Below, in pieces: positions 6,005-24,870 of a stretch of 64,000 nucleotides of DNA; within the stretch, counting starts at the first letter, position 1, and each line of letters starts with the position of its first letter. Location of the stretch: positions 1-64,000 of the IMG/VR virus record IMGVR_UViG_3300032315_000601; one strand, 5' to 3'. The translations under genes were made by a program, and so were the position numbers. The notes beneath the pieces were generated by a model, which saw only the letters and a program-made list of their open reading frames with translations, was not told the DNA's origin and searched no databases. The DNA comes from a virus.

Positions 6005-8242
6005 TTAAACGAGTGCTTGTTTTGAAATCTTGCTAGCAACTTCTGCGTCACGCAAGGCTAATTTTTGCTGAACTTCTGCCAAACGTAGGTTAAGTCGCAT
6101 CTGATGAGTCTCTTGCATCATTTGCAATTTGGCCTGATGTTCCTGCAATTTTTGTTGGAGGGTGTCTGCGTATTTAGATTGTTGCTCGGCAGCGGCCATT
6201 TCTGCTCCGGGCGCACTTTGGGACTCTTGCTGTTCACGTAATTTTTGAACTTGTTTTACCCCGTTATTTACAATCTCACCAAACTGTTGCAGAGATTTCC
6301 GTAGGGCTGCACCCGCTTCAGGGATAGTTGAATCCCTAGAAACTTCTTCAACATGGGTAGTAACATGGCCGTATAGGTTAACAAGGAAGTCAATAACTTG
6401 TTCAATCGGGGCCTGACCTGCTTCGACAATTTGAACTGTTTGACCTAGGGCGGCAAGGTGAACTTTGGCATGTTCCAAATGGTTCTCATTCGGGAGGACT
6501 TGAATCTGATTTCCAGAGCGCATGTCCCCATTCTCAAGTTCAGCAATCTTAATATCAATAACGGGCCGCGCCTCCGCATCGGGGGCGGGGGTGTACCGAT
6601 CTGCCAAATCGTAACCAAATCGTGCAGCAACGCGATCTCGTTGAGCGGCTTTGCGACCATATTCATCGAAACCGGGCATAAGTTCCATCAACTCGTTAGT
6701 TGCTAGGAGTCGCGCAGCCTCAGAACCTGCGCCAATTGCCCGAACCGGACGTACGGAATTAATGTCAACAGCTAGGATAGCCTCTACAGGAATACCTCGC
6801 AAAGCGCATCGATTGTAAAAATCTTGAACTTCGCGACCTCCCGGTTCGTCAGACATATACCCACCACGGACAAACCTGCGGACCATTTCCTTGAGTACTC
6901 GGCTCCAAGGTTCGTAGAACAGGTTTAGTGAAGCGACTGAAAGCCGTGCTTGGCTGGCAAGGTTAGACTGCACCTCCAACTTTGTTTTATCTCGGGTATC
7001 CGATACTGCAGATGAGGAGTCATACCCCGCAGTTTTACTTTGCATTTGCGCAGAAAGATCCTGCAAAAACGGCATGGCCGTCCTACTCACGTCAGGCATG
7101 GCGTTGGGGACAACGTTTATCATGTCTGGAGCTAGCACGGAGTAGGGGCCATAGTAAGTGAAGTTTAGATCTTCAAGTGCCTGTTCGTTCTGGGGTTGGA
7201 GCAGTAGCGTGGAACTCAGCATCGCCCCATCCGCCATCTGGCAGCGGAGGCGATTACTGAGTTGTACTTGGGGGAAAATTTTATACCCTAGTCCTCGAAT
7301 TGAATGATAGTAGCCGTTGGTGCCAATGCCGTAGGGAAAGAAGACGAACGCGCTGTTGATATGCTCGTAAAGACTGCGTTTAACGCAAAGAAAGTCTTCC
7401 GACTCATTATTCTCCAAAGTCATGTAATAGGATACGGTGCCATCAAATTCTTTAACCCAAGCGTGGATAACTTTTACTTCTGAAGCGTTTGCAGTTCCTG
7501 TGAACAGATCGTTATTCTTCAACTCTACCTGCAATTTCTCCCACTCGGTAAACGTCCCTGTGGATCCGTTAGTGGCTTTGATTAAGGCTTTACGAACTTC
7601 CTCCACGTTCCATCCCATGTCAGAAGCAGCTTCGGCGTCTTCAATAAAACGATAAAGCTGATGCGCTTGGTAGGACCTAACGCATACGGCAACTTCAATC
7701 TCGTCTTCACAGGCAAGAGTCTTTCGGGGGATCAGGAAATCTCCAAACATTGAAACGCGCCAACGCCAGTCGATGCTGTCTTCCCAGTACGCAATACCCA
7801 CTCCATGGGTGACAAAATACTGGCAGAGCAGAAGGTAGTTAAAGTTGAATTGCGGCCACGAACGAATAGCTCGGGTAAGCTCTTCAGCGATAACGTTTGA
7901 GTACTCCAAACGAGTTTTGGTGTCCCCGTAATCTGTTTTCAAAGACAGGAGATGCTCGACGGAGTGGATAATATCCACATAACCAGCCATCGCACTTTCT
8001 TGAATAGTAGAAGCTTCATCAAAGTTTACGTTGCAACGATAAGACTGTCCGCTAGCCATGAGATCTGCATCGCTATACGGAGGTACTCCGTCAAACATAG
8101 CTTGAATCTCGGCACGATTTTTTGAAGACTTGTCATCCGCATCCCGCAACTTACGGTAAATTTCGTGTAAAGATTTAGAATCTTTTACACGACTACGGGG
8201 CGCACCGCTTTCGGATACGTTTTGGAGAAGGGTGTCGTTCAT
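6005..8242 (-). CDS. Portal protein
   Basis: 745 residues, in the normal range for podovirus-type portals. It would form the dodecameric ring at the capsid vertex through which DNA is packaged by TerL. The sequence shows the helical N-terminal region, the central wing/stem part (about 100-480) and a long Gln/Glu/Ala-rich C-terminal helical tail (about 640-745) like the barrel of P22-type portals. The gene overlaps the preceding glycosyltransferase stop (ATGA). Placement downstream of terL and upstream of scaffold and capsid gives the classical order. The assignment is strong from context plus size, though the family was judged by eye. Confidence 0.85.
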   Translation of the reverse strand: MNDTLLQNVSESGAPRSRVKDSKSLHEIYRKLRDADDKSSKNRAEIQAMFDGVPPYSDADLMASGQSYRCNVNFDEASTIQESAMAGYVDIIHSVEHLLSLKTDYGDTKTRLEYSNVIAEELTRAIRSWPQFNFNYLLLCQYFVTHGVGIAYWEDSIDWRWRVSMFGDFLIPRKTLACEDEIEVAVCVRSYQAHQLYRFIEDAEAASDMGWNVEEVRKALIKATNGSTGTFTEWEKLQVELKNNDLFTGTANASEVKVIHAWVKEFDGTVSYYMTLENNESEDFLCVKRSLYEHINSAFVFFPYGIGTNGYYHSIRGLGYKIFPQVQLSNRLRCQMADGAMLSSTLLLQPQNEQALEDLNFTYYGPYSVLAPDMINVVPNAMPDVSRTAMPFLQDLSAQMQSKTAGYDSSSAVSDTRDKTKLEVQSNLASQARLSVASLNLFYEPWSRVLKEMVRRFVRGGYMSDEPGGREVQDFYNRCALRGIPVEAILAVDINSVRPVRAIGAGSEAARLLATNELMELMPGFDEYGRKAAQRDRVAARFGYDLADRYTPAPDAEARPVIDIKIAELENGDMRSGNQIQVLPNENHLEHAKVHLAALGQTVQIVEAGQAPIEQVIDFLVNLYGHVTTHVEEVSRDSTIPEAGAALRKSLQQFGEIVNNGVKQVQKLREQQESQSAPGAEMAAAEQQSKYADTLQQKLQEHQAKLQMMQETHQMRLNLRLAEVQQKLALRDAEVASKISKQALV

Positions 8243-9178: not shown

Positions 9179-10927
9179 TTAACTTCCGTAAGCAAGTGTT
9201 TTACTAGCTTTTTTGATCAGGTCAACTTTTTTAAACCACTTTTTATAGCCTATATTCTGTTGATACGGATCATCGGCAATTTTGTCGACTGCAGTTAAAT
9301 TGTGCCTCGTTCGACACAGTTCGACCAAGATAAAAGCGGCATCTGAAATGTCTGGCGATTTGCCAATTCGGGACTTCATATCCGATTTAGTTTCGACTCG
9401 TATCCGCATGCTCAAACCTTTTTCCGTGGTGTATTGACGCTCGGTCATTTCTCGAACTAGCTCCCGGCACACTCCGAATAGCTGTTTATTCCGTATTAGC
9501 TCCTTACCCGTCCACCATAACTCCGATACTCTGTTTGCATACCTTTCATGGCCCGGTACCCTGTCCGTCAGGGAGACGGGTTTTTCACTAGCCCTACCCC
9601 CAAACTGCACTCGGAGCACTTTACGGGACCAGAGTGCATCTACCACGTCACCGAAGGGGGCACCGCCTCCACTGGCATCGTAAGCGGCATTCTGGGGAGT
9701 TACGCCCCAAGCTTCGCACTTATCTTTAAATTGTCGGGCAATTTGAAAAGCTCTTGGCTCCTCTTTATTGGTAACGTCCTCCCGAAGCTCTTCGTAGTGG
9801 TCTAGACACATTACTCTTCGTCCAGTGGTATCAATCCCGACAAACCCAAAATACAGAATGCTGCGGTCGCCATTAGCACTAAAAGAAGGGTCAAGAGCGG
9901 CTACTTTAGTTGGCTTGTCGATCCATTCGACCCGCTTGTCGGCTCCGTATTTGATGATGTCGGATTCGCTATAGATAGAAGTGTCCGAACCTGTCGGACA
10001 CCAAAACCCTCGGTACATCCTCCAGTAGCCGGGACTGGTTTCTCCCAGTTTACTTGCACTTTCTGCAAGGTTTTGTGGAGTAATCATCCAAGGATATATC
10101 ACGTGTCCTGCAATAATATTGGGCGACTTGTGCGCATCAAAGTGTAGGCAGTGGCCACGCTCCGTCTCCCACTCTTCATCTTCCACGGTAATCGAGCCCC
10201 ACCCACCTATGGGAGTAGCGAACTGACCGAAGGGGTCGTAATAACTGGCGGGGTTGCCGATGCCGATGAGTTGGAAAAACGGGTTATTGGACAGGTTGGT
10301 GTATGCGGCTTCGAGAATTGACTCGCCTAGTTCGGGCAACTCGTCTGCGATAAAAATCACCCTCTGCTGTTTAATACCTACCAATTTACCTACGGCTTCG
10401 CGTTCTTTTTTACGTTCGGCAGCTACGAGGGCGATGCCGCAACGATCGCCATACTTGGTGTCGGTGCCGTCATCCATGCGGATCATGCCTACGGAGTCGA
10501 CTAGCTTCCCCGGCAGCCCCGGAACCGCTCGCCATAGGTCGGTGATTGCGCCCCAAATACGTTTCCGCGACTCTTTTAAACTTGTTGAAGTAACGATAAC
10601 CAGCGTAGCCCAAGGTTTCATGAGGAAATTCACGATAGCCCACAATGCGTACGCTTGGGATTTGCCGCTACTGGCGCAACCAGCTACCGCCAAGTACTTG
10701 TGCTCAAAAGCGGCCTCAATCATACGCTCCAGCCAAGGCGTCCACTCGATCGGCATCTTGGAATCGGGATGGTTCCAGAGTAAATCCACTACTTGTTTAA
10801 AGTGAAAAAGTTTCCCCGGTGACTGGGGAGGAGGGTCGTTTAGGCAACTCAGTTCCAAGGTCACCAAAGTAATATCGGCGGGGAATTCCCGTCCGTAAAC
10901 CATCACCGTTTTACTTTTTGCAGCCAT
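9179..10927 (-). CDS. terL: Terminase large subunit
   Basis: 582 residues from the ATG at 10927 (a TTG seven codons upstream is a poorer start). This is the packaging motor: an N-terminal ATPase and a C-terminal RNase H-like nuclease. Walker A is GCASSGKS (about residues 83-90) and Walker B is VIFIADE (about 190-196). Nuclease acidic residues lie in ALDPS (about 346), AAYDASGGG (about 417) and SPDISDAAF (about 529). All expected motifs are intact. The gene starts back-to-back with the integrase, 65 bp apart; the two arms of the genome diverge here. The only TerS-like gene is 13 kb away. Confidence 0.93.
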   Translation of the reverse strand: MAAKSKTVMVYGREFPADITLVTLELSCLNDPPPQSPGKLFHFKQVVDLLWNHPDSKMPIEWTPWLERMIEAAFEHKYLAVAGCASSGKSQAYALWAIVNFLMKPWATLVIVTSTSLKESRKRIWGAITDLWRAVPGLPGKLVDSVGMIRMDDGTDTKYGDRCGIALVAAERKKEREAVGKLVGIKQQRVIFIADELPELGESILEAAYTNLSNNPFFQLIGIGNPASYYDPFGQFATPIGGWGSITVEDEEWETERGHCLHFDAHKSPNIIAGHVIYPWMITPQNLAESASKLGETSPGYWRMYRGFWCPTGSDTSIYSESDIIKYGADKRVEWIDKPTKVAALDPSFSANGDRSILYFGFVGIDTTGRRVMCLDHYEELREDVTNKEEPRAFQIARQFKDKCEAWGVTPQNAAYDASGGGAPFGDVVDALWSRKVLRVQFGGRASEKPVSLTDRVPGHERYANRVSELWWTGKELIRNKQLFGVCRELVREMTERQYTTEKGLSMRIRVETKSDMKSRIGKSPDISDAAFILVELCRTRHNLTAVDKIADDPYQQNIGYKKWFKKVDLIKKASKTLAYGS

Positions 10928-10992
10928 CGTTAAAAAAGTTTTTGACAAGATTGGCCGGAGAAGTCAAGGTAGCCACACACAACTTTAAACAC

Positions 10993-18728: not shown

Positions 18729-18950
18729 ATGTCAAACACACAAATGACACAGGAATCGCTGGACGTTCTAGAAAAACTTAGTGGTTGGACAGAGGGTCGC
18801 AAGTACGAAGAGAACCATTGGCCTAGTATAGTAGTGCTGGCAACTGGCGAGGATGGAGTAATGTGGATGCACCGGGATGATGGTGAAAAGATAAAGCGGC
18901 TAGAACATATGGACATCGATGGAAAAGTCTTCGTGAGAGATCCACAATGA
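18729..18950 (+). CDS. Small hypothetical protein in replication operon
   Basis: 73 residues, 6 nt after the previous stop, ending in an ATGA overlap with the primase-helicase start. The sequence is Trp- and His-containing with a DGVMWMHRDDGEKIKRL centre, suggesting a small beta hairpin fold. No family was recognised. Tight packing on both sides supports it as a real gene. Confidence 0.65.
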   Translation: MSNTQMTQESLDVLEKLSGWTEGRKYEENHWPSIVVLATGEDGVMWMHRDDGEKIKRLEHMDIDGKVFVRDPQ

Positions 18951-21100
18951 AAACATTCTACGCAAAGAACCTAGCCTCGTCGGACGTGCAGGAAATGCCA
19001 TGCGACCCATGGCTGGCAACTTCATCCGGATACCCCGCCAACGTAGCCACTAAAGATGACTACGAAAAATGGGTACGGGACAAAGCTGTCGACCACTGCT
19101 TCTACACAGCGGCGGAAGGCGTCAATCCGCACAAGCGCATTTCGCTGGAGAATCCCGCGAAGTGGCTGCACGGACTGGTTGCGGACTACGATGCAAAGCT
19201 CGATCCTAACTTCAACCTGCAGGACATACTTTCGCGTTGCGATGCGGACGCGATGCCTGCTGCGGTAAGCCGTACTTTCAGCGGCAACGCCCGTGTAGTC
19301 TGGCAGTTCGACTCTCCCGTGCTGGTGGACTGTCCGGAGATGACGAAGCACCTGATGAAGGAGATTGCCAAGAAGTTCAAGCTGGGCAACGTCCTTCCGG
19401 GAATCGACGAATGCACCTTCAGACTAAACCAGCTATTTGAAATCGGCCACGGCTGGGTACCCGTAAGCGGTACTCCCGGAGTAGCCGATACCGTGACGGG
19501 GGACTTGATCGTCAAGGCCAGCGGCAAGGTGGACTGGAACAAAGTCGCAGGAAGCGATCTCGAAATCCCCATTGATAAGATCGCAGCCGAAGTCGAAGCT
19601 CGCTGGCCCGGAGCATGGCCGGGAGACTTCACCGTGGGTTCCCGTGGCCCGACCTTCTGGCTTAACGATGGGATCACCCGCATCGGGTGTCAGGTAGCCG
19701 AGGCAGGGATTATCTGCTACACGGATCGTGCTGGTAAGTCGTTTATGACTTGGGGCGATCTGCTGGGCAAACAATTCGTCGATCAGTACCGCCAAGAGGT
19801 GATCGGCAAAGCCGTCATGGAGTATTACTATGATGGCAAGGCGTACTGGTTCAAGAACGGAGCCAATCGCTGGTACGATGCGAAAGTGGAGAACGTGGCT
19901 CGAAGTCTCAGGGTTCATGGGATCAAGACTGAGTCCAAGAAGGGTGCATCTCAAATGGACCGAGTACTCCACGCAATCGAGACCCAGAGACGGGTAGATG
20001 CGGCGGCTCCGATCCTGTTCGACAAGCGGGAGATAGTCGATGTCGGCAACACCAGAATACTTAACATCAACTACCGCACTGCGATTGCTCCTGCTGATAC
20101 GGGAGATGAGTCTACTTGGCCGTGGCTCAGAGAGTGGGTCTGGTCCTGCTTTGGCGAGGAACAGCTTCCCTACTGGCTGGCCTACTGGAAACGCAAGTAC
20201 AAAGCAGCCTTGGAGTTCGAACCTGTGCAAAGTCAGTTGATTGTACTGGCTGGCGGTGCGGGTCAGGGCAAAACCCTGTTCAACCGCAAGGTCATGGGCG
20301 ATAGTCTGGGCGGCTGGGCGGACGCTGCCCCTTATTTACAGGGTAAAACCAGCTTCAACAAGACAGTGGCCGAACATCCGCATTGGGTGGTCGATGACCC
20401 TCAATCGGCTATTGATCCGGACAAACACCGTCAGTTCTCAGAATCTTTGAAAGCCCACGTAGCCAACCCCACGGTTATCTACCATCCAAAGTTCAAGGAT
20501 GCCACAGAACTGCCGTGGACGGGGTGTATGTGCCTGACACTCAACACTGACGCACACTCCCTGTCGGTCCTACCCACTCTGGATAACAACATTCTTGATA
20601 AGATAATGCTTTTCCAGTTCGAAGACTACCAGCACAAGTTCTCCTCCAACAAAGAGAACGAGGAGATTATTAAGAAAGAACTGCCACACTTCTTGCGGTG
20701 GTTGCTCGACTATTCACCGCCCATCCACGTCGAGTGGTCCGAGAATCCAAGGTTCGGGATACGGCCCTACCACCATCCCAAGATGATGGAGTCGGCCAAT
20801 GAGGACTCCGCTGCTACCAAACTAGAGGAGATCCTCGATCGGTGGGCCAGTGGGGTGCGCCGTGACGAGAAGACCAAGAAAGAATGGAAGGGTACGGCAA
20901 CGGACCTGTTCTCCAGCATCATGGGTATGGATGAAGGTATGCTCAAGCCGCTGCTGTCGCGGTACACTCCAGTGAGACTTGGCCGCGAACTGCGCATGTT
21001 GGCAAACAGATCTTCAAGTAGGGTCTTGCGTCATGTCTCACATCATGGTAAAACTTGGTACGTAATTTCAGTTGAGGAAACTTTTACCAAGAAAAAATAA
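18947..21100 (+). CDS. Primase-helicase (AEP-like primase plus SF3-like helicase)
   Basis: 717 residues. The N-terminal 220 residues show a prim-pol-like core: VADYDAKL (about 78-85, acidic pair Asp 80/Asp 82) and FSGNARVVWQF (111-121). The C-terminal half has a Walker A GGAGQGKT (436-443) and a Walker B-like WVVDDPQS (480-487), the layout of phage/plasmid DUF5906 or D5-type replicative helicases. It would open the duplex and prime synthesis for the family A polymerase upstream. The gene overlaps the previous one by ATGA. No separate DnaB/DnaG pair is present, consistent with this protein doing both jobs. Confidence 0.85.
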   Translation: MKTFYAKNLASSDVQEMPCDPWLATSSGYPANVATKDDYEKWVRDKAVDHCFYTAAEGVNPHKRISLENPAKWLHGLVADYDAKLDPNFNLQDILSRCDADAMPAAVSRTFSGNARVVWQFDSPVLVDCPEMTKHLMKEIAKKFKLGNVLPGIDECTFRLNQLFEIGHGWVPVSGTPGVADTVTGDLIVKASGKVDWNKVAGSDLEIPIDKIAAEVEARWPGAWPGDFTVGSRGPTFWLNDGITRIGCQVAEAGIICYTDRAGKSFMTWGDLLGKQFVDQYRQEVIGKAVMEYYYDGKAYWFKNGANRWYDAKVENVARSLRVHGIKTESKKGASQMDRVLHAIETQRRVDAAAPILFDKREIVDVGNTRILNINYRTAIAPADTGDESTWPWLREWVWSCFGEEQLPYWLAYWKRKYKAALEFEPVQSQLIVLAGGAGQGKTLFNRKVMGDSLGGWADAAPYLQGKTSFNKTVAEHPHWVVDDPQSAIDPDKHRQFSESLKAHVANPTVIYHPKFKDATELPWTGCMCLTLNTDAHSLSVLPTLDNNILDKIMLFQFEDYQHKFSSNKENEEIIKKELPHFLRWLLDYSPPIHVEWSENPRFGIRPYHHPKMMESANEDSAATKLEEILDRWASGVRRDEKTKKEWKGTATDLFSSIMGMDEGMLKPLLSRYTPVRLGRELRMLANRSSSRVLRHVSHHGKTWYVISVEETFTKKK

Positions 21101-21102
21101 TT

Positions 21103-21375
21103 ATGGGCGACCAATATAAAACAGTATTTGAAAAAGTTAAGACATTCCCCGGTCCAACAGCTAGGGGCCGTGTTCTCCAAGCGCGTGCTGAAGCTTACGA
21201 TAAAGTTAAACCTCGCAGTAAAGGGAGTGCAGGTCGCGACTCAGCTGGAGTTCAAAGAGATAACGAATATTATTTCGGGGGTAGGGATGGAGTGGCTGCC
21301 TACCAAAAACTATTCCAATCACAATCAGACAGTACCCTAAAGAAAGCAAAGGACTCGATGTCCAAGAAAAAATAA
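21103..21375 (+). CDS. Small basic protein with DKVKPRS motif (copy 1)
   Basis: 90 residues, 2 nt after the primase-helicase stop. Basic, with YDKVKPRS, one residue, GSAGRDSA at about residues 32-48, followed by QRDN. Nearly the same block occurs in the 84-residue protein two genes downstream, so the two are paralogues or share a binding motif. Ends in Lys-rich KDSMSKKK. Function unknown; DNA or RNA binding or a virion-packaged peptide are possible. Confidence 0.65.
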   Translation: MGDQYKTVFEKVKTFPGPTARGRVLQARAEAYDKVKPRSKGSAGRDSAGVQRDNEYYFGGRDGVAAYQKLFQSQSDSTLKKAKDSMSKKK

Positions 21376-21708: not shown

Positions 21709-21963
21709 ATGGACAAACTCAAACAAGCCAAAGATTTTTTCGATAAAGTCAAACCACGCAGCGCGGGTAGCGCAGGGCGTGAGTCTGCCGAGAAACAAAG
21801 GAAGCGGGATCGCATTTTGCGCGACCTCGGTGCTGGTCCCACGATTTCGGTGGAGAGGATTCCGAATGCCAAAATGATCATGCCGTCCACGGAAAGCATG
21901 ATGCGGGAGGGCGAGATGGATCTGGTCAACTACCCCCGCAATACTCGCGGCGTGAAGAAATAG
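21709..21963 (+). CDS. Small basic protein with DKVKPRS motif (copy 2)
   Basis: 84 residues. Residues 12-30 (FDKVKPRS, one residue, GSAGRESA, then KQRKRD) repeat the motif of the gene at 21103. The second half is different, with MIMPSTESMMREGEMD. This is the last gene before the 1.5-kb non-coding region. Function unknown; the repeated motif suggests binding of a common partner. Confidence 0.65.
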   Translation: MDKLKQAKDFFDKVKPRSAGSAGRESAEKQRKRDRILRDLGAGPTISVERIPNAKMIMPSTESMMREGEMDLVNYPRNTRGVKK

Positions 21964-22095
21964 CTGGCGCGGCCCCTCGACGGGACCCCAGTTTACTAAA
22001 TAACCACCTACACACAACCCCTCCCCGGCGGCTAAAATTGAGTTTGAGTTATCAGTACTATTTGTACCCAAGAATTTGGAGCCCGGAGGGCGGTT

Positions 22096-22497
22096 GGGTA
22101 GGGATGGGTAGGGGTGGAAAAATCTGTAGCATGTACCTTGGAACCAAGGAGTTACGAGAAAGTGGGTAGGGGTGGGTAGGGGTGAGGGTAGGGGTGAAAA
22201 ATTATTTATAAGTTCCTGGGTTCCAAGGACTTAACCCCGATTGGGTAGGGGATGTAGGGCTTTTTTTGGAAACCGTGCGGCTCCGCGCCGTATTTTCCCG
22301 CCCGCTGGGGGTTTCCCGGTTCCTTATATTATAATTTATCTTCAATCAATTTAAAAAAGCCCTACATCCCCTACCCAACCCCAGTTAAGTACCTTGAAAA
22401 TCAAGCACTTAAGGTGGGTAGGGGTGGAATTTTTCGCGATTTCCTCCCCTACCCTTTCTCTGTAGGTGGGTAGGGGTGACTTTTTCCTCCCCTACCC
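22096..22497. repeat. GGGTAGGGGT decamer repeats (G-quadruplex capable)
   Basis: Plus-strand copies at 22096 (one change), 22106, 22164, 22174, 22186, 22243 (one change), 22416 and 22468. Inverted cores CCCCTACCC lie at 22368, 22446 and 22489. Pairs of opposite copies form stems at 22416-22454 and 22468-22497. Runs 22096-22114 and 22164-22194 have four or more G-tracts with 1-3-nt loops, a textbook G-quadruplex pattern. Confidence 0.85.
22219..22396. repeat. Nested inverted repeat with 26-bp perfect arms
   Basis: The 26-nt arm at 22241-22266 (starting TTGGGTAGGGG and ending in six T) is the exact reverse complement of 22353-22378. Outside it, CAAGGACTTAA (22224-22234) nearly pairs with TTAAGTACCTTG (22385-22396). 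Inside, GGAAACC (22268-22274) pairs with GGTTTCC (22310-22316), and an AT-rich stretch (22325-22358) follows. The structure could extrude as a cruciform, act as an origin, or act as a two-way terminator. Confidence 0.8.
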
Positions 22498-22662
22498 AAT
22501 ATGATATTCTGATTCTTGGATCCTTTGTTCGGGGTATTAGTATCGTTAAACGGTACTTTTGAGTACTGAATCGTAAATAGTCCAAGCCAAATTTGAACTA
22601 TTGGTCATTCTGTATGCTTTTGACATGTCTCCCTGACTCCCACATGCGCTTTGTTTGGTTCC

Positions 22663-23240
22663 CTGTACGCTAGGGTACAGTAGTGTCTCAGGAACGTTAC
22701 ACTGGGGTGGTATTGAAAAGTGCGTAGTTTTTGTGACAGGGTCGAAGTCTCCGGTGTACTCCCGCCCCCTGATCCCCCTACTTTTGATTCTTTGGCCCCT
22801 AGGAGGCGTTTTCATGGGTTCAGGGGGTCCAAGGTCGGGAAACCAAAAAATTTTTTCTTAGAGGGTGTATATATTGAAGCTCTGTTCTGTATAGCGGGTG
22901 ATAGGGGTACCCGCGTGGTGGTTGCGTGGATTACAGACGTGCGTAGACGCTGTAGCTACGGCGTTGGATTCCGAGCGGCCCTCGGCGTTTTTTTCCGCCT
23001 GTTTGCTGTCCATCGGTATGCATGATGCAGCGACAAGCTGTCCGCTCAAGCGGTTGGTTCTTTATACAGTATCTGCGGCGAGGCCGAGTGGCCTCAATGT
23101 GATCGCCGAGACAAGGACGATTCACTCCCACGCCGGAAAGTGGGAAACGGTAGCGATGGGATTTCCCTCCGCCTCGACCCGTAGACGAAATGACGTGCAG
23201 GGCGCGATTAGCAACGCATCAAAACCTACTGAGACACGTC
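22663..23240 (+). ncRNA. Candidate large structured RNA region
   Basis: A chain of perfect stems within about 550 nt: CTGTAC/GTACAG (22663-22680), CCCCCTGA/TCAGGGGG (22765-22827), GCGGGT/ACCCGC (22894-22914), CCGAG/CTCGG (22971-22985), CAGC/GCTG (23028-23040), CCGC/GCGG (23042-23053), and CGGC then GAGGCC-GAGT-GGCCTC closed by GCCG (23076-23108). Later stems are CCCAC/GTGGG (23128-23145) and GGGAAA/TTTCCC (23142-23166). Such density without a gene, in a phage with a nearby tRNA, is the setting in which ornate RNAs such as GOLLD or ROOL occur, but I cannot match it to a known class. Confidence 0.35.
22971..22994 (+). terminator. Terminator-like hairpin
   Basis: CCGAG, a 5-nt loop and CTCGG (22971-22985), then CG and seven T (22988-22994). 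The stem is short (5 bp, GC-rich) but the T-run is good. It could end a short RNA from the region upstream. Confidence 0.5.
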
Positions 23241-23399
23241 AACGTCCACGCGCACGGACAGCGCAAAGCAAACAACTCTGCTTCAAGAGTCAACCCAACC
23301 CTCAACCCTCGGACATTCTGCGGTATGCGGATGTTCTTAAGTTCCTGACCGATAACTCTACAATTCACCTTGTGTAATGCGGCCAGCGAATCAGAGGCT

Positions 23400-23503
23400 C
23401 ACCCAGTCCGGTTTATTCTCGGGCTGGGTGTAATCTGCAGGAATCGAAACCATCATCGCTTCGCGGTGCATGACCCTTCGGCCTCCTGCAGATAAACACC
23501 CAG
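23400..23503 (+). promoter_or_regulatory. Leader with mutually exclusive stems before the 23518 gene
   Basis: CTGGGTGT (23424-23431) can pair back with CACCCAG (23400-23406), or forward with ACACCCAG (23496-23503). The forward option adds a neighbouring stem TCTGCAGG/CCTGCAGA (23434-23441 with 23485-23492), 16 bp in total, ending 14 nt before the ATG at 23518. Only one arrangement can exist at a time. The forward form would close the leader just before the ribosome site, so it could switch translation of the 23518 gene. No aptamer class was recognised. Confidence 0.55.
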
Positions 23504-23517
23504 TTAGAAATAAAAAG

Positions 23518-24363: not shown

Positions 24364-24870
24364 CTAATCTGACAGAATCCCTGTCTCCTCGACCACTTCT
24401 GCGTCGATGATCTCGGATTCGATGTCCACCTTCGTCACGGCACCTCCAGCTGTCTGCTGCAGCCAACCAACATTCACGATCGTGCTCTTGGTATTCTCTG
24501 AATCTTCGAGGCCAGCAGCCTTTCGAGCCATAGAATCCGCGATCTGGGCATCTTTCCACGTCCTCGGGGCTGGAAGGTTAGCCTCGCGCAGCGCAGAATT
24601 CGCCTTGTCGAATACCAATCGCCTGTGTGCCGAGCCTTTGGATTTCCAGTCTGTCTCCATCATGTCGGCAACTTTCTCTACGAGAGATTTTTCCAATGGA
24701 ACGCTGTCTGGAAGTTTCCGTATCTTATTCCATCCAGCTTTCCATGCCTTTGTGGACACTGTTTCTCTGTTAATTCCGAACTTGTCAGCAATGTCATTTG
24801 TGGACATTCCAGCAAGGTAGCACGTTTTAACTGCGAGCCATGTCTCTCTCGCTATCTTCGTTTTAGCCAT
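24364..24870 (-). CDS. TerS-like helix-turn-helix protein
   Basis: 168 residues from the ATG at 24870; upstream in-frame starts would extend into the leader. The N-terminus (MAKTKIARETWLAVKTCYLA) leads into a helix-turn-helix, STNDIADKFGINRETVSTKA (about residues 22-41), then a helical middle and an acidic tail. This is the make-up of many phage small terminase subunits, which bind pac or cos DNA and hand it to TerL. It is the only minus-strand gene between 11 and 41.9 kb, 13 kb from terL. A transcription regulator is the alternative. Confidence 0.6.
   Translation of the reverse strand: MAKTKIARETWLAVKTCYLAGMSTNDIADKFGINRETVSTKAWKAGWNKIRKLPDSVPLEKSLVEKVADMMETDWKSKGSAHRRLVFDKANSALREANLPAPRTWKDAQIADSMARKAAGLEDSENTKSTIVNVGWLQQTAGGAVTKVDIESEIIDAEVVEETGILSD

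Follow-up and report, generated by a model that had tools for sequence, protein, structure and literature searches.

A conserved array of short repeats around a melting-prone inverted repeat, a probable replication origin in an uncultivated lineage of 70-kb phages

What does a dense cluster of G-rich decamers do in the non-coding DNA of a phage? The cluster lies in the window, the whole 64,000-nt stretch analyzed, which is part of a circular 70,180-bp virus record with 123-bp terminal repeats. A sequence-only reading had described eight plus-strand and three inverted GGGTAGGGG-like copies between positions 22096 and 22497 and had proposed G-quadruplex DNA serving as an origin control site, a recombination hotspot or an RNA thermoswitch. 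Our analysis suggests that the array is probably an iteron-type origin of replication, shared by a lineage of uncultivated phages with 70-kb genomes. Its origin status, the identity of its binder and the order of events at the site are each what we infer from the features described below.

Repeat units and their conservation

Recounting the units gave the same eight plus-strand and three inverted copies, 10 of which match GGGTAGGGG exactly. Plus-strand units start at 22096 (GGGTAGGGA), 22106, 22164, 22174, 22186, 22243, 22416 and 22468, and minus-strand units occupy 22368-22376, 22446-22454 and 22489-22497. The density was confirmed to be far above that of shuffled DNA, with 10 exact units, whereas 2000 dinucleotide shuffles of the array region held 0.05 on average and never more than 2. 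A longer, 11-nt form of the unit, GGGTAGGGGTG, has six copies in the whole 70-kb record, 6/6 inside the array, and the array is the sole cluster of units in that record. No plausible gene was found in the region, which is the longest ORF-free gap of the genome and was rightly called non-coding. The spacers hold a second motif, which is palindromic.

22096..22114, plus strand: tandem pair GGGTAGGGA + GGGTAGGGG; second unit conserved, first not
22132..22153, unstranded: palindromic spacer element CCTTGGAACCAAGG, second motif family, weakly conserved (partly visual)
22164..22194, plus strand: tandem triplet with spacings of 10 and 12 nt, unchanged across six genomes, G-quadruplex-capable
22210..22235, unstranded: palindrome AAGTTCCTGGGTTCCAAGGACTT, related to CCTTGGAACCAAGG (partly visual)
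22243..22251, plus strand: invariant unit within the left arm of the inverted repeat (alignment)
22368..22376, minus strand: invariant inverted unit (alignment)
22386..22413, unstranded: palindrome TTAAGTACCTTGAAAATCAAGCACTTAA, kept in part in the distant relative G010 (alignment)
22416..22424, plus strand: invariant unit (alignment)
22446..22454, minus strand: invariant inverted unit (alignment)
22468..22476, plus strand: invariant unit (alignment)
22489..22497, minus strand: invariant inverted unit (alignment)

Five IMG/VR genomes (G1 to G5) with primases 88-99% identical to that of the window phage (G0) served as close relatives. The array was found in every close-relative record that reaches the locus, and in G1 to G5 it has the same place, unit order and orientation as in G0, with nearly the same spacing. 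In the six-way alignment, whose rows amount to about five independent sequences (G3 and G5 are near-identical at the array), 90/90 positions of the exact units were invariant, compared with 170/303 (56%) of the other array positions. Isolated units were invariant to the same degree as tandem units in the six genomes, and the 'TA' between the G-tracts varied no more than the tracts themselves. The first tandem unit (22096) was missing or broken in G2, G3, G4 and G5. In alignment A9, used for the spacer palindromes, the G2 row came from the wrong place and was left out.

These patterns bear on whether the repeats are selected for G-quadruplex folding, as origin control or as an RNA thermoswitch. 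Folding potential, scored with G4Hunter and canonical motifs against shuffles, proved real. The array region holds 3 canonical motifs against a shuffle mean of 0.18 (at least 2 motifs in 0.8% of shuffles), its top G4Hunter score of 2.52 was reached by 1.6% of shuffles, and the distant relative G010 also has a G-quadruplex-capable tandem. A functional G-quadruplex should keep its G-tracts, leave its loops free and leave isolated tracts unconserved; instead, loop letters and lone units, which could not fold by themselves, are as invariant as the tandem G-tracts. The first motif, 22088-22114, depends on the unconserved first tandem unit, which G2 to G5 lack intact, and the minus-strand motif at 22360-22382 is missing in G2 and G4. 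Selection for folding is therefore very unlikely, and the capacity to fold probably comes along with the conservation of protein-binding sites. Nothing at the array spoke for an RNA thermoswitch or a recombination hotspot. The locus would then show that a strong G-quadruplex signal can arise in this indirect way.

Two further, more distant genomes (G010 and G011) were found via DNA polymerase alignment. G010 is 70,776 bp long, and its primase and polymerase are 62.6% and 74% identical to those of the window phage. Its homologous locus, identified by gene order and by sequence words in common, among them CTCTGTAGG and the hairpin ACCCACCCGCGTGGTGGG, has the same layout with a different unit, GGTGGGGTA, which can be read as GGGT-A-GGGGT minus one base. 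All seven exact copies (7/7) in the 70.8-kb record lie within 309 bp, in both orientations. A co-evolving trans-acting binder would be expected to change interspersed copies in concert, as seen in G010. With the layout, the melting-prone core and the skew switch described below, this points to an initiator that co-evolves with its repeats in an iteron-type origin; the concerted change also fits other phage DNA-binding proteins, such as a terminase small subunit or a repressor. The G011 record stops short of the array locus. Its polymerase gene (L179 9001-11727) is interrupted, with matches to residues 1-541 and 506-585 about 870 nt apart, which suggests an intron, an insertion or a duplication.

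Inverted repeat, unwinding element and strand composition

The units lie in and on both sides of a long inverted repeat with a two-part loop:

22241..22266, unstranded: left arm of a 26-bp perfect inverted repeat (exact-repeat search)
22267..22322, unstranded: GC-rich half of the loop, stem-loop-capable, poorly conserved (alignment)
22323..22358, unstranded: AT-rich, candidate unwinding element, lowest stability of all 36-mers in the genome (melting stability)
22353..22378, unstranded: right arm of the inverted repeat (exact-repeat search)

Among exact inverted repeats of at least 16 bp within 300 nt, the 26-bp one stands alone in the genome. In the five close genomes examined, the arms enclose a loop of 85-87 nt with low sequence conservation and an AT-rich second half. 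The candidate unwinding element ranked as the least stable 36-mer in G0, G3, G4 and G010 and the second least stable in G1 and G2. Folded as a single DNA strand, the hairpin greatly exceeds shuffled sequence in stability (z = -7.8). Because the stem is nearly invariant across relatives (L008 has one mismatch, uncompensated), its pairing is unproven by compensation. G010 has an inverted repeat of 20 nt at 95%, and between its arms a GC-rich stretch is likewise followed by an AT-rich one. A search of the array for known RNAs returned solely eukaryotic microRNA models, far below threshold, on the inverted repeat.

To cancel the effect of gene direction, GC skew was calculated at third codon positions of plus-strand genes only. 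Across the array, skew drops from -0.06 to -0.20 in G0 (p = 0.004) and from -0.11 to -0.28 in G010 (p = 0.001), and it also drops in G1 (p = 0.0004) and G3 (p = 0.007), these p-values coming from related genomes and being not fully independent. Minus-strand genes of G010 shift in the opposite direction. The cumulative skew peaks at a distance of about 0.7-1.5 kb from the array, and the minimum is roughly antipodal to it in G0, G1 and G3, but not in G010. In bacteria, the cumulative skew maximum marks the terminus. The skew check of an origin thus located a switch at the array with a polarity the reverse of the bacterial norm, and by the bacterial rule the array would be a terminus. This reversed polarity is the chief unexplained point of the origin reading. 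An origin is preferred over a terminus because the locus has iterons and an easily melted element and adjoins replication genes.

Candidate binders and the neighboring RNA

Several features on either side of the array are relevant to how it may work:

18947..21100, plus strand: 717-aa primase / SF3-type helicase (DUF5906), candidate initiator (profile matches)
22576..22602, unstranded: conserved palindrome AATAGTCCAAG-N6-TTGAACTATT, one copy per genome
22774..22826, unstranded: highly conserved 53-bp block, kept at 88-98%, surrounding flanks diverge
23228..23510, plus strand: structured RNA candidate adjoining the array, possibly from 22840 (compensatory pairs)
24364..24870, minus strand: 168-aa helix-turn-helix protein, rival binder, as regulator or small terminase (profile matches)

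Of the replication genes upstream of the array, the primase-helicase gene is nearest, at about 1 kb, and is preceded by a family A polymerase gene. The 717-aa protein matches DUF5906 barely over the cut-off, matches a DNA-primase PHROG within the helicase part and carries a Walker A motif. Its N-terminal part gave no profile or PDB match to an archaeo-eukaryotic primase domain; a DxD-like motif was seen by eye. A PDB sequence search with the primase found no relative, and Foldseek with the primase-helicase models found no significant fold match. The model of the full protein has a mean pLDDT of 30 on a shallow alignment, and a low-confidence model of a C-terminal fragment (mean pLDDT 60) predicts a helix-helix-helix-strand-strand order at the C-terminus. 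The last 37 residues (681-717), within the predicted winged-helix region, form the block least conserved against G010, at 32% compared with 63% for the whole protein. Such low conservation would be expected if recognition had changed with the unit, a weak argument. The C-terminal end of the primase-helicase is the leading candidate binder, and the helix-turn-helix protein at 24364-24870 is the main alternative candidate. No relatives of the primase were found as prophages (0 among 84,980 genomes), and isolate phages gave no protein-level relative and no meaningful DNA match. Two small genes between the primase and the array, 21103-21372 and 21709-21960, are fast-evolving and share a KVKPRS-GSAGR motif.

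If the array is an origin, a phage initiator, most likely the primase/SF3-type helicase acting through its winged-helix-like C-terminus, would bind the 9-10-bp units that flank the inverted repeat and assemble on the iterons on both sides. It would then melt the 36-bp AT-rich element that lies between them, from which helicase and primase would launch two forks around the circular genome.

The palindrome at 22576-22602 (AATAGTYCAAG-N6-YTTGAACTATT) has the shape of a crossover site for a tyrosine recombinase. Such a recombinase is encoded by the phage at 10918-12135, and the palindrome is a candidate attP or resolution site.

The RNA candidate has 79 pairs, 98.7% of them kept, and 18 pairs changed on both sides among three distinct sequences. 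Shuffles gave 6.9 ± 2.0 such pairs, none reaching 18, and slid controls gave 0-1. Counterparts lie at L008:9545-9858, L014:19477-19775 and L023:17797-18095; an Rfam search of 23228-23510 returned no match. Its segments CACCCAG / CTGGGTG / CACCCAG covary, and alternative hairpins are possible. The RNA stands directly upstream of a 163-aa gene without known function. In G1 and G2 its place is held by an unrelated, strongly folding stretch (z = -4.4) followed by a different small gene with no similarity to the 163-aa gene. The loci of this alternative RNA and gene in G1, G2 and apparently G010 are L002:13840-14640, L021:3330-4030 (minus strand) and L180:14745-15440, and the small gene of G010 resembles, by eye, that of G1 and G2. 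Both types of locus begin with the same promoter-like block. Judging from these sequences, RNA and small gene appear to have been swapped together between lineages. The RNA at 23228-23510 may represent a family of large phage RNAs that is new. That RNA and origin form one replication-control module, in which the RNA, transcribed away from the origin, primes or regulates firing, is an idea to which we give low odds.

Alternative readings and comparison with known origins

Features expected of an iteron origin, namely clustered short sites, unit conservation with concerted change, an AT-rich element and a nearby replication gene, were found at this locus. Invariant units, their concerted change, the melting core, the primase-helicase and the skew switch uphold the earlier proposal of an iteron array with origin control, and the opposite skew polarity tells against it. 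Other functions were weighed against the same evidence. Should the helix-turn-helix protein be a small terminase, the array could be a packaging (pac) site. Circularly assembled genomes fit headful packaging, G0 and G3 carry 123-bp terminal repeats with differing start points, no small terminase was recognized next to the large terminase at 9179-10948, and the protein has weak small-terminase matches (phrog_1206, 7.7e-5). However, its weak matches span many other helix-turn-helix families, its domain shows no special divergence in G010 despite the changed unit, and a pac site needs neither the least stable DNA nor a GC-skew switch, which makes packaging improbable. We regard as slightly less probable that the units are operators or enhancer sites for the structured RNA and early genes. 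The helix-turn-helix protein is close by and a promoter-like stretch, CAAAAAATTTTTTCTC-AGAGGGTGTATATAT at about 22844, is conserved in five genomes, but the units lie at least 350 bp from it, a sigma-70 scan stayed at background level, and ten units in 400 bp around an inverted repeat with a melting-prone core exceed the needs of a repressor.

A replication terminus or a KOPS-like dimer-resolution or segregation site would agree with the position of the array at the cumulative skew maximum, with the conserved 27-bp recombinase-site-shaped palindrome and the tyrosine recombinase gene, and with the identity of GGGTAGGG to the KOPS octamer GGGNAGGG, which orients FtsK (PMC5357621). A KOPS role of the units was rejected on the genome-wide distribution of GGGNAGGG, which lacks polarity. 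Elsewhere in the genomes the octamer is rare, unit orientations in the array are mixed, the G010 unit GGTGGGGTA is not a KOPS, and no origin-like feature was recognized near the skew minimum. We therefore consider this reading unlikely, a shade more so than operators. Clustered repeats in both orientations on a circular genome would also suit a parS-like partition centromere of a plasmid-like prophage state, but no ParA/ParB was recognized among the genes scanned near the array, and the skew switch and unwinding element would be left unexplained; this is highly improbable. If the origin reading is right, the array provides a compact origin for a phage lineage known from metagenomes alone, and the diverged unit pair with its candidate initiators provides a natural specificity system.

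Similar units occur in other phages. In a family of prophages with a lambda-type origin (L152), GGGTAGGG units, which the window phage also carries, form inverted pairs inside a replication-initiation gene; the initiator is unrelated, and the family was retrieved by searching with the GGGTAGGG motif and is not independent proof. In L152 the pairs lie at about 6988-7068 (also L151, L153, L154, L168 and L171), the initiation gene has DnaD-like / initiator PHROG matches, the layout is lambda-like, and copies occur in MAGs labeled Nevskiaceae and Rickettsia endosymbiont. L119 2319-2652 (G006) has nine GGGTAGGG units in mixed orientation around an AT-rich core, between divergent gene blocks. The L119 and L137 phages have similar-looking arrays with no related primase detectable and are leads only. 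Other viral contigs with paired GGGTAGGGG were rejected as chiefly chance or microsatellites.

With iteron plasmid and SaPI origins the array shares repeated initiator sites beside an AT-rich unwinding element. Typical iterons are 17-22-bp direct repeats, whereas the array units measure 9-10 bp and occur in both orientations. A DnaA-dependent origin was rejected, since the arrays of G0 and G3 contain no DnaA box and G1 has a single, distant one.

In pRN1, the origin used by the PrimPol-SF3-winged-helix protein follows the gene for that protein and is a stem-loop whose sequence is little conserved, with conserved flanks; the pRN1 authors proposed a similar arrangement for phage BIP-1, and in P4 the winged helix of the alpha protein binds origin repeats (PMC4234260). 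Like pRN1 and BIP-1, the window phage is a circular replicon with its candidate origin downstream of a primase-SF3-type helicase gene, and like pRN1 it has a long inverted repeat with a poorly conserved loop, set between conserved flanks. Unlike pRN1, which has no iterons, the array has iterons flanking the stem-loop, a 26-bp stem and an 85-87-nt loop with an AT-rich half, and about 1 kb separates it from the gene. With P4 it shares short, roughly decameric repeats and an SF3-type helicase-primase as candidate initiator, while unit sequence and primase domain type differ. P4 has a second site, crr, and no second cluster was seen in the window genome. By analogy, and with no claim of membership in either system, the array locus looks like the pRN1 and P4 designs combined. 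If the origin reading is right, iteron and PrimPol-type stem-loop designs, usually described apart, are united here in one origin.
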